Shown: piece by piece, positions 16,187 to 19,978 of the stretch
How the letters are laid out: the number at the start of each line of letters is the position of its first letter
Numbering within the stretch: the stretch's first letter is position 1
DNA from: Clostridia bacterium
GTDB lineage: Bacteria > Bacillota > Clostridia > Christensenellales > UBA3700
DNA length: 64,000 nt
Assembly (NCBI GenBank): GCA_029060025.1
Contig: JAIDUV010000027.1
Span: 36,085-100,084, forward strand
Reading direction: 5' to 3'
Position numbers and translations under genes: made by a program
The notes under the pieces: generated by a model
Databases searched by the model: none
What the model was told of the DNA's origin: nothing
What the model saw: the letters and a program-made list of their open reading frames with translations, nothing else

Positions 16187-16636
16187 ATGCGATTTGAAGA
16201 ATTTATAAAGTTGTACAACGAAATATATAAAGCCGGCAACAGAATATATCACGCCTTTGCGCGCAAATGCGGTTTGTCAGACAGCGCGCTTTTAATAATG
16301 TATGAGTTGAGAATGGAAGGGCAGCAAGGCATTACGCAAAGAGATTTGGGATTAGCGCTTTCGCTGAGTAAGCAGACTGTCAATTCATCGACAAAGTCAT
16401 TGTCGTATATGGGGCTAGTAGAACTAAAAGACGGCAAAGGAGACAAAAGAGAAAAAACAGTGATATTGACAGCCAAGGGCGAAAATTTTTGCATAGAGAA
16501 AATTGACAGAATTATCAAAGCGGAAGAAAGAGCCTTTTGCAGACTTACAATGGAAGAAGCGCAGGCTTTGATGTCCGCAGAAAAAAAGTATTATGAGTAT
16601 TTTCTTGAAGAATCAAAGAAAGCAATGGATATTTGA
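16187..16636 (+). CDS. MarR family transcriptional regulator
   Basis: Winged-helix pattern GITQRDLGLALSLSKQTVNSSTKSLSYMGLVELKDGKGDKREKTVILTAKGE. Confidence 0.9.
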   Translation: MRFEEFIKLYNEIYKAGNRIYHAFARKCGLSDSALLIMYELRMEGQQGITQRDLGLALSLSKQTVNSSTKSLSYMGLVELKDGKGDKREKTVILTAKGENFCIEKIDRIIKAEERAFCRLTMEEAQALMSAEKKYYEYFLEESKKAMDI

Positions 16637-16639
16637 GTT

Positions 16640-18046
16640 ATGAAAGAAGCAATACAATTGTCAGATAAATTCAATTTAAAGAAGATAATAAGATTTACGT
16701 TGCCGTCAGTGATTATGATGGTGGTAATGTCAATATATAGCGTCGTCGACGGTCTGTTTGTGTCCAATCTCGTTGGAGACTTAGCGCTTTCTGCCGTCAA
16801 CGTGGTTATGCCTTTGGTAATGATAATAGGCGCCGTCGGACTTATGTTGGGTTCTGGCGGAAGCGCACTTGTTGCAAAGACTTTGGGCGAGGGAGACAGA
16901 ACTAAGGCAAATAAGTATTTTTCAATGATAGTGTTTTCCGTGATTGGTATCGGTATTATTCTTTCCACCGTATGTCTGATATTTTTAAGGAAAATTCTCA
17001 CGCTTATGGGCGGAAGTCCCTTGATAATAGAGGACTGTATGTCATACGGCTACGTTATGGTAGGCGGAAGCGTATTGTTTATGCTGCAATGTATGTTTCA
17101 GAGTTTTTTTCCTGTCGCAGAAAAAGCCAAGTTGGGACTTATACTTTCAATCAGCGCCGGCGTTGCTAATATGGCGCTTGACTATATATTCATTAAATTT
17201 GCCAAGTTGGGAATATTAGGCGCAGGACTTGCCACCGTAATTGGATTTGCTATAGGCGGAGGCGTCGCGTTGGCATATTTTATCTTTTCTAAAAAGAGTA
17301 TAATAAGGATTAGGGGATGCGGATTTTATCCCAAGCAATTCGGATACGCTTGCTACAACGGCGCTTCGGAGTTTATGTCCAACGTGTCCGCGTCGTTTGT
17401 AGGTATACTTTACAATATCCAACTTCTCAAGTTGGTTGGTGAGCGAGGCATAGCGGCATATTCTGCAATGATGTATACCGACTTCGTATTCTTGGCGGTA
17501 TTCTTTGGCTTTACTATGGGTATAGCGCCGGTGATAAGTTATAATTTCGGAGCAAATAATTATGCCGAAATGAAAAACGTATTCAAGAAGAGTACTGCGC
17601 TCATAGTAATTGGATCTGTTGTTGCTATGATTTTGGCGGAGGCGTTGAGTTATCCTTTGGCGTATGCTTTTGTGGGCTACGACAAAGAACTTTTGCAAAT
17701 GACAGTAAGAGGCTTTAGAATATTTGCCGTATGTTACGTATTTTGCGGCATCAATATTTGGTGTTCTGGATTTTTCACGGCGCTTTGCAATGGCGGAGTA
17801 TCAGCGTTTATATCCTTTTTGCGTTCGCTTCTGCTGAGAGGAAGCGCGGTAATGCTGTTGCCGTTGATTTGGGGACTTGACGGAATATGGTCGGCAGTTA
17901 TTGTTGCAGAAGGCTTGACCGCTGTCGTGTCGGTACTGCTATTCGTGATATTCCGCAAACGCTATAGATACGGCAAAGAAACAAACCTATCTGACGTCAA
18001 CGCGCAGAAGAGCGTAGATACGCAGTTGACAAACAAGCAAGAATAA
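16640..18046 (+). CDS. MATE family efflux transporter
   Basis: ~12 TM helices; FTLPSVIMMVVMSIYSVVDGLFVSNLVGDLALSAVNVVMP. Confidence 0.93.
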   Translation: MKEAIQLSDKFNLKKIIRFTLPSVIMMVVMSIYSVVDGLFVSNLVGDLALSAVNVVMPLVMIIGAVGLMLGSGGSALVAKTLGEGDRTKANKYFSMIVFSVIGIGIILSTVCLIFLRKILTLMGGSPLIIEDCMSYGYVMVGGSVLFMLQCMFQSFFPVAEKAKLGLILSISAGVANMALDYIFIKFAKLGILGAGLATVIGFAIGGGVALAYFIFSKKSIIRIRGCGFYPKQFGYACYNGASEFMSNVSASFVGILYNIQLLKLVGERGIAAYSAMMYTDFVFLAVFFGFTMGIAPVISYNFGANNYAEMKNVFKKSTALIVIGSVVAMILAEALSYPLAYAFVGYDKELLQMTVRGFRIFAVCYVFCGINIWCSGFFTALCNGGVSAFISFLRSLLLRGSAVMLLPLIWGLDGIWSAVIVAEGLTAVVSVLLFVIFRKRYRYGKETNLSDVNAQKSVDTQLTNKQE

Positions 18047-18129
18047 TTTGTTATTTTTAAATTAGCGTCATTGAATTTGATTGACAAACTATGCGAAATT
18101 AACTATAATGTCAAATGTAGCGTCGATAT

Positions 18130-18206
18130 GCACTCATAGCTCAATTGGATAGAGCGTTCGGCTACGGACCGAAAGGTTGGGAGTTCGAGTCTCTTTGGGT
18201 GCACCA
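18130..18206 (+). tRNA. tRNA-Arg(ACG), CCA encoded
   Basis: Acceptor GCACTCA/TGGGTGC, anticodon loop CTACGGA, T-loop TTCGAGT, 3' ACCA. Confidence 0.95.
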
Positions 18207-18256
18207 AACACAACCTAATTCGAACTATTGAATTAGGTTGTGTTTATTTTTTAAAG
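18207..18256 (+). terminator. Terminator of tRNA-Arg
   Basis: AACACAACCTAATTC...GAATTAGGTTGTGTT followed by T-rich tract. Confidence 0.8.
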
Positions 18257-18337
18257 TTACATTTATTATAAAATTTGCTTGTGTTATGTTTTTATATATG
18301 ATATATTTTAATTAGAAATAGTTTTGAGGTGAAAGGA

Positions 18338-18358
18338 ATGATGATAGTTTCTTGCTAA
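18338..18358 (+). CDS. Candidate leader peptide MMIVSC* upstream of the ABC-F gene
   Basis: AGGTGAAAGGA SD followed by ATGATGATAGTTTCTTGCTAA. Confidence 0.55.
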   Translation: MMIVSC

Positions 18359-18466
18359 ATTTTTATAATAAGTCGACAGGGTTATTGCGCTCTAGGGACT
18401 TATTTGATTGCAAGAAAGTTTATCTACCAATTTCTCAAATACAAAAATATTTTGAGCACTAGTTGA

Positions 18467-18500
18467 GTTATGAGAATACTTTCTCATAACTTTTTTGTTT
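18467..18500 (+). terminator. Intrinsic terminator (attenuator) in the ABC-F leader
   Basis: Perfect 10-bp stem GTTATGAGAA-TACT-TTCTCATAAC followed by TTTTTTG, just before the ABC-F SD. Confidence 0.85.
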
Positions 18501-18517
18501 TTAAGGAGGTATATAGT

Positions 18518-19978
18518 ATGTCAATTATTAAGGTAGAAAATCTTACGTTTGCTTATCCGTCGAGTTATGACAATATTTTTGAAAACGTCAATTTTCAGAT
18601 AGATACGGATTGGAAACTCGGCTTTGTTGGCAGAAACGGCAGGGGTAAAACAACTTTTTTAAATCTATTGCAGGGGAAATTCGAATATAGCGGAAAAATA
18701 ATTAAGTCCGTTGAGTTTGATTATTTTCCTTATCCTGTGCGCGACAAGAGCAGTCTTACGGAAGATATTCTGCGCAAAGTTTGCCCGACGGCAGAAGAAT
18801 GGCAAATTATGCGCGAGTTGTCATACTTGGACGTCGATTACGACTGTTTGTACAGACCGTTTGATACTTTGTCCAATGGGGAGCAGACCAAAGTCCTGCT
18901 TGCCGCGCTGTTTCTAAACGAAGGGCGCTTTTTGCTGATAGACGAACCTACCAATCATTTAGACACGCAGGCGAGAGAATTGCTGTCGGCATATTTGCGT
19001 AAGAAAAAAAGTTTTATATTGGTATCTCACGACAGGCATTTTTTAGATGGATGCGTAGATCATATTCTTTCGCTTAATCGCGCAAATATTGAGGTGCAGA
19101 GCGGTAACTTTTCTTCGTTTATGACAAATTTTGAGAGACAACAGGAATTTGAGCGTAGACAAAACAGCCGATTGCAAAATGATATTCAGCGCTTGCAAGA
19201 GACGGCAAAGCGTACTGCAAATTGGGCGGACGCCGTCGAGGCGTCAAAAATCGGAGCGGCGGACAAAGGTTACGTGGGGCATAAGTCTGCAAAAATGATG
19301 AAACGCGCAAAAGTCGTAGAGGCGCGGCAACAAAAAGAGATAGAACAAAAATCTAATTTGCTTAAAAATGTAGAGGTAGAAAGCGCCCTTAAAATCTCTC
19401 CGCTTTGGTATCGTTCCGACCGACTTGCGTCCTTTTCTTCGGTTGCGCCTGTTTATGACGGCAAAGTCGTTTGCGCGCCAATGACTTTTGAAATCAAGCG
19501 GGGTGATAGGATTGCTCTTGAGGGTAAAAACGGAAGCGGAAAAAGCAGTCTGCTAAAATTGCTGTGCGGTCAACTTATAGGTCATTTAGGGAAAGTGGAG
19601 GTAGGCTCTAATTTAATCATATCCTACGTGCCGCAAGATACGTCACATTTGCAAGGAAGGCTTGCAGATTTTGCCGCGTCAAATAAGATAGACGAAAGGT
19701 TGTTTAAAGCCATACTTCAAAAAATGGGCTTTGACCACACTCAATTTGAGAAGGATATATCAGACTTTTCGGACGGACAAAAGAAAAAGACCTTGATTGC
19801 AAGAAGTCTTTGCGAGCAGGCGCATTTATACGTCTGGGACGAGCCGTTGAATTATATTGATATTTATTCGCGTATTCAAATTGAAAAATTGCTTGAAGAG
19901 TTTAGACCCACAATGATATTTGTCGAGCACGACAAGGCTTTTCAGGATAAGATTGCGACAAGCGTAATTCATATTTAA
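18518..19978 (+). CDS. ABC-F family ribosomal protection protein (Lsa-like)
   Basis: Two ABC domains: GRNGRGKTTFLNLLQG, LSNGEQTKVLLAALFL, LIDEPTNHLD, GKNGSGKSSLLKLL, DGQKKKTLIARSL, WDEPLNYIDI; GHKSAKMMKRAK linker resembles Lsa proteins. Confidence 0.9.
   Translation: MSIIKVENLTFAYPSSYDNIFENVNFQIDTDWKLGFVGRNGRGKTTFLNLLQGKFEYSGKIIKSVEFDYFPYPVRDKSSLTEDILRKVCPTAEEWQIMRELSYLDVDYDCLYRPFDTLSNGEQTKVLLAALFLNEGRFLLIDEPTNHLDTQARELLSAYLRKKKSFILVSHDRHFLDGCVDHILSLNRANIEVQSGNFSSFMTNFERQQEFERRQNSRLQNDIQRLQETAKRTANWADAVEASKIGAADKGYVGHKSAKMMKRAKVVEARQQKEIEQKSNLLKNVEVESALKISPLWYRSDRLASFSSVAPVYDGKVVCAPMTFEIKRGDRIALEGKNGSGKSSLLKLLCGQLIGHLGKVEVGSNLIISYVPQDTSHLQGRLADFAASNKIDERLFKAILQKMGFDHTQFEKDISDFSDGQKKKTLIARSLCEQAHLYVWDEPLNYIDIYSRIQIEKLLEEFRPTMIFVEHDKAFQDKIATSVIHI

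Follow-up and report, generated by a model that had tools for sequence, protein, structure and literature searches.

A predicted uORF-controlled transcription attenuator upstream of Lsa-type ABC-F genes in Clostridia

How is an Lsa-type ABC-F gene of a clostridial locus switched on, and does the short uORF in its leader act through its peptide or through the RNA that encodes it? The window analyzed here, a 64,000-nt stretch of contig JAIDUV010000027.1 from a Clostridia bacterium, carries such a gene behind a leader for which the original prediction, made from the DNA letters, had proposed a drug-responsive attenuator. The predicted protein matches NF000167 with 728.8 bits over its full length, narrowly missing the strict cut-off of 750, and NF000355 with 483.8 bits, exceeding the cut-off of 380. 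Its best solved relative is Lsa(A) (PDB 7nhk, 394 bits). The Lsa-like gene with a Shine-Dalgarno (SD) sequence in front of it was thus correctly anticipated, and by family it would be an antibiotic-resistance ABC-F gene with predicted resistance. No second close copy was found in its own genome (assembly of 2.04 Mb in 98 contigs), and the nearest relatives of the window are uncultured Clostridia records.

On the 5' side of the leader (window 16187-18245) lie a MarR-like regulator, a MATE exporter and a tRNA-Arg(ACG) gene, the last of which has both a perfect TTGACA-17-TATAAT promoter and a terminator of its own. Because the tRNA gene upstream has its own terminator, the ABC-F unit probably has its own promoter. 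A candidate recognized by eye (Table 1) is not listed in a promoter scan of the window; a relative that is 94% identical (L073) has TTGAAA-17-TATATT at the equivalent position.

Table 1. Features of the ABC-F leader and gene, in window coordinates
Feature	Position	Strand	Basis or remark
Candidate promoter TTGTGT-17-TATATT	18279..18307	+	by eye; low confidence
uORF Shine-Dalgarno GAGGTG	18326..18331	+	invariant in 18 of 18 leaders of full-leader alignment A1
uORF ATGATGATAGTTTCTTGCTAA, MMIVSC*	18338..18358	+	relatives share its start, length and place
Strand 1, TTTCTTGC, within uORF codons 4-6	18348..18355	+	pairing with strand 2, covariation
P2 hairpin, AATAAGTC / GACTTATT, caps the predicted anti-antiterminator	18367..18404	+	fold, covariation
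Strand 2, GCAAGAAAGT, partner of strand 1 or strand 4	18410..18419	+	fold, swap tests, covariation
P3 hairpin, CTCAAA (18434-18439) / TTTGAG (18451-18456), between strand 2 and terminator	18434..18456	+	fold, swap test
Intrinsic terminator, 12-bp stem (18465-18492), loop TACT, T6 (18491-18496)	18465..18496	+	
Strand 4, ACTTTCT, terminator loop and start of 3' arm, predicted antiterminator partner of strand 2	18478..18484	+	
ABC-F gene Shine-Dalgarno AAGGAGGT	18503..18510	+	ATG at 18518
Lsa-type ABC-F ribosomal protection gene, 486 aa	18518..19978	+	profile matches and solved relative

The uORF with its upstream SD is present as originally described, and so is the CTCAAA/TTTGAG hairpin, a hairpin at the same place being conserved among leaders. 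The terminator was also confirmed together with its T6 tract, but instead of a 10-bp stem at 18467-18500 it is a slightly larger and shifted one of 12 pairs. What had been missed is the main switch. Strand 1 can form 8 of 8 pairs with GCAAGAAA of strand 2 (18410-18417), about 55 nt away, making an anti-antiterminator, and AGAAAGT of strand 2 (18413-18419) can form 7 of 7 pairs with strand 4, making an antiterminator. These two pairings are mutually exclusive, and the second also excludes the terminator. The 201-nt leader is more stably folded than shuffled sequence (z -3.6), with a minimum-energy fold in which strands 1 and 2 pair around P2 and the terminator stands separately; homologous leaders put the structure far beyond chance.

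Covariance models R1 or R2 matched the leader, in the sense direction and upstream, in 58 of 80 loci encoding related proteins, four of the 80 having less than 100 nt of upstream sequence. The six-codon uORF form M..[VFIL]SC* belongs to the clade of the window, and a seven-codon form, M..[FI]SC[KR]*, occurs in Lachnospiraceae, Oscillospiraceae and others. Viewed singly, the leaders have the strand 1:2 pairing, the P2 hairpin, the terminator and the strand 2:4 pairing, and most of them have P3. When the two covariance models were run over whole genomes blind to gene positions, they found matches in 28 of 391 genomes of the class, 22 of 396 of the order and 24 of 248 of one family, nearly all directly upstream of an Lsa-like gene. 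Five matches that have no ABC-F gene (L121, L123, L124, L142 and L146) have some of the lowest scores and resemble chance hits.

In L107 (1501-1600, minus strand), a leader of this type with the uORF MIIFSCK* precedes an Msr/CplR/Vga-like ABC-F gene whose product is 27% identical to the Lsa-like protein, which suggests leader exchange or convergence. L017 and L030 (~1363-1428) have shortened leaders that have lost P2 and retained strands 1 and 2, but translation from the best-placed start codon would run through strand 1 in another frame (MENFLVKLK* in L017).

Full-length MAFFT alignments did not align P2 and P3 well, so each helix was examined either sequence by sequence or in shorter alignments. 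RNAalifold, unaided, found both the strand 1:2 helix and P2 for each of the two uORF forms. Cells changed on both sides of a pair numbered 24 in alignment A3 and 45 in alignment A4, against 8.0 and 12.6 in shuffles, and none of 500 shuffles was as high in either case; P2 pairs were changed on both sides at 7 of 10 (A3) and 12 of 13 (A4) positions. When the helices were shifted by 1-3 columns, 35-52% of cells remained paired, compared with 86-92% in register. At the most variable core position of strands 2 and 4, the combinations were A-T in 37 leaders, G-C in 15, G-T in 5 and A-C in 1 (Fisher p = 7e-9), and at that of strands 1 and 2 they were U-A in 57, U-G in 16, C-G in 8 and C-A in none (p = 2e-5). 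All three strands are altered together in L165 (TTTCCCGT, GCGGGAAA and TTTCCCGC). As relatedness persists in the samples, these covariation numbers and those of the swap tests below are strong evidence rather than exact probabilities.

In swap tests on 81 non-redundant leaders (less than 85% alike), the extension of strand 2 paired with the terminator-loop side of its own strand 4 at a mean of -2.37 kcal/mol, compared with -1.29 for those of other leaders, and with its own 5' uORF codons at -2.32 compared with -0.88 kcal/mol; no permutation out of 10,000 did as well in either test. The terminator leaves its loop bases unpaired, and for this reason their covariation with strand 2 is evidence for the antiterminator as such. 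The halves of P3 likewise paired better with their own partners than with swapped ones (0 of 10,000). The antiterminator originally proposed, TTTCTC with the 5' arm of the terminator, fared worse: it drew weak support, with 83 of 10,000 permutations of a mixed set equally good, and it is broken in relatives such as L031 and L032, which retain the strand 2:4 pairing. The conserved antiterminator is that of strand 2 with the terminator loop and 3' arm.

A ribosome at the uORF start was simulated by holding positions -15 to +16 around the start unpaired. In a partial window transcript that ends just past the first half of strand 4, this footprint changed the probability of the strand 1:2 pairing from 0.99 to 0.00 and that of the strand 2:4 pairing from 0.00 to 0.98. 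In the finished window transcript, the terminator is more stable than the 7-bp antiterminator even with the footprint, so the switch would have to act during transcription. In full transcripts with the footprint, the antiterminator wins in L038 (0.96-1.00) and in lsa(E) (0.85-0.86).

Taken with the strong comparative support for a uORF-controlled attenuator before this Lsa-like gene, these results make it very likely that the leader is a ribosome-mediated transcription attenuator with the uORF as a ribosome parking place; stalling, the identity of the drug and readthrough are parts of the model that we infer, and the inducing drug class would be the one expected from the gene family alone. Without drug, ribosomes would traverse the six-codon uORF and leave, strand 1 would pair with strand 2 under the P2 cap, and with strand 2 sequestered the terminator would form and end transcription before the ABC-F gene. 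A drug acting at the peptidyl transferase center (pleuromutilin, lincosamide or streptogramin A) would hold a ribosome at the start or first codons and cover strand 1, and the freed strand 2 would capture the emerging terminator loop and 3' arm, so that the terminator would be blocked and the gene transcribed. The uORF peptide would then be mostly dictated by RNA pairing.

Arrest peptides are common at macrolide-inducible genes (ErmCL, ErmBL, MsrDL), and the original prediction took MMIVSC as a candidate drug-responsive stalling peptide, combined with the TTTCTC antiterminator. Two further points favor reading it as a drug-specific arrest peptide: the SC frame is preserved in 75 of the 81 uORFs, given which the peptide may have a role beyond RNA pairing, and the sequence of the vmlR uORF is reported to influence induction by lincomycin (PMC10201436). 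The homologs contradict it, as they shorten or alter the uORF and keep the RNA strand. In 6 of the 81 leaders the uORF stops after two or three codons (MI*, MK* twice, MRN*, MKL* and MF*) with strand 1 retained; others have Phe, Pro, Ala or Arg in place of Ser or Cys, including one in which Cys became Arg with matching changes in all three strands. Since strand 1 is retained through these shortenings and replacements, the peptide is not the conserved sensor, and the peptide conservation expected of leaders of the ErmCL, ErmBL and MsrDL kind was not found in these sequences. Synonymous and non-synonymous strand 1 changes (8 of 24 versus 1 of 5, p = 1) are too few to separate the readings. We regard the arrest-peptide reading, together with its antiterminator, as improbable.

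The spacing of the uORF bears on what a parked ribosome would do. From the first base of the start codon, strand 1 begins after 10 nt in 77 of the 81 leaders and after 11 nt in the remaining 4, and the toeprint of a ribosome positioned on the start codon lies at +16 (PMC9226507); such a ribosome therefore covers most of strand 1. Pleuromutilins, lincosamides and streptogramin A stop ribosomes at the start codon of ARE5 ABC-F uORFs (PMC12421871), and these drug classes are reported to act with little need for context (PMC10201436). The short uORFs with retained strand 1 are compatible with these drugs halting ribosomes at the start codon here as well.

A ligand-binding riboswitch or protein-binding leader, with the uORF secondary, would agree with a structured leader of ~200 nt with P1, P2 and P3 hairpins. 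However, Rfam 15 covariance models run against 18210-18560 gave no match up to E = 1, and the loops vary freely while conservation is concentrated around the start of the uORF and in the switching strands, making this very unlikely. It is still less credible that the leader is an amino-acid attenuator sensing Cys or Ser shortage: Ser-Cys codons are conserved in most uORFs, but they are single codons rather than a run, the MK*, MI* and MF* uORFs end before them so that the sensing codons are not retained, and the downstream gene is for ABC-F ribosome protection, not biosynthesis or tRNA charging. A plain, unregulated terminator next to a chance reading frame, short frames being common, is equally hard to credit, as the SD, the start and strands 1, 2 and 4 are conserved across many families and the mutually exclusive helices covary.

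The leader also appears on mobile DNA. The lsa(E) gene of plasmid pE15 (L174, NZ_KT448821.1, minus strand, ~230-600) has a leader that matches R1 with 52.5 bits (E 6.8e-10), with the uORF ATGTATAACTTTTCTTGCTAA (MYNFSC*), strand 2 GCAAGAAAGTT and terminator arm ACTTTCTTGC, followed by ~130 further nt with an apparent SD-hiding stem before the gene. This leader DNA occurs in 111 plasmid records, mostly from Enterococcus, 110 of them at at least 99% identity. Searching plasmids by blastn with the leader DNA of the window and of L038 gave no match; it was solely the protein and the covariance model that revealed the lsa(E) copy.

Other Lsa-type genes have a different leader. Among those examined, the lsa(B), Bacillus and Lysinibacillus homologs (L173, L081-L088) gave no R1 or R2 match. 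A second kind of leader stands alone in L081, L084-L088, L173 and L175 (Bacillus, Lysinibacillus, Priestia and lsa(B)), with a uORF such as MSDSDTIVTHVLLRTSR or MVLELDVTHELLRISR and alternative stems able to hide the SD of the gene. In L027 (1140-1500), L028, L104, L105, L115, L143 and L148, the attenuator comes first and a second uORF carrying a TH..L motif comes after it (such as MNTAEMVVTHIFLRVMSV in L027 and MKNKDTLLTHDNLHI... in L104), with an SD-sequestering element immediately ahead of the gene. A related leader in two parts, with a different second uORF, occurs in L061.

The leader has the sequence-level features of ARE ABC-F attenuators: a uORF with its own SD, a terminator between uORF and gene, an anti-antiterminator overlapping the uORF, and a competing antiterminator, the last two seen in covariation and swap tests. 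The same attenuation logic has been demonstrated by experiment for vmlR of Bacillus subtilis (uORF MIN), which shares the uORF within an anti-antiterminator hairpin, a middle hairpin, an intrinsic terminator and an ARE ABC-F gene, and in which the antiterminator arises when the drug stalls the ribosome, an event predicted here (PMC9226507). The two differ in sequence and in uORF (M..[VF]SC* here, MIN* in vmlR), in that strand 1 is part of the uORF coding sequence here, and in that no SD-sequestering hairpin was seen before the gene in the window. Between the anti-antiterminator and the terminator, where a vmlR-type leader would have an RNA polymerase pause hairpin, the present leader has the conserved P3 hairpin, known from its sequence.

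The cplR leader of Clostridioides difficile (uORF MR[I/M]), for which drug induction has been demonstrated, is likewise a clostridial leader with a short uORF and a terminator before an ARE ABC-F gene, but its terminator hairpin also hides the SD of the gene (PMC10201436), which here follows the terminator, and its gene clade and uORF differ. LsaA belongs to the same ARE3/Lsa family and is set apart by its published uORF consensus, MAGN (PMC10201436). The leaders of lsa(B) and of the lsa-like genes of Bacillus and Lysinibacillus also bear uORFs, yet these are longer, with a TH.LLR motif (MVLELDVTHELLRISR), and come with an apparent SD-sequestering element. The present uORF differs from all the published consensus uORFs, MIN, MK[L/Q], MR[I/M] and MAGN (PMC10201436), and in the literature searched, which took in few subscription papers, we found no description of the present leader, nor of the lsa(E) leader or its uORF. 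At the sequence level, the leader appears to work like the vmlR attenuator, as an RNA that is absent from Rfam 15 and a switch of a known kind.

A broader proposal, toward which the evidence leans slightly, is that most lsa-type genes of clostridia are under the control of a single uncatalogued family of RNA switches, which has traveled with lsa(E) into plasmids of Enterococcus, Listeria, Staphylococcus and Lysinibacillus, senses only a ribosome at the start codon, the peptide being irrelevant, and in several lineages is stacked with a second, different leader-peptide switch acting on translation. The leader gives a defined, searchable RNA family for predicted inducible resistance to lincosamides, pleuromutilins and streptogramin A in gut clostridia. 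For the widespread lsa(E), the prediction is inducible and not constitutive expression, with consequences for how resistance shows up in susceptibility tests. In addition, the natural series of uORFs, from seven down to two codons around an unchanged RNA strand, could settle whether the peptide or the ribosome at the start codon is sensed.
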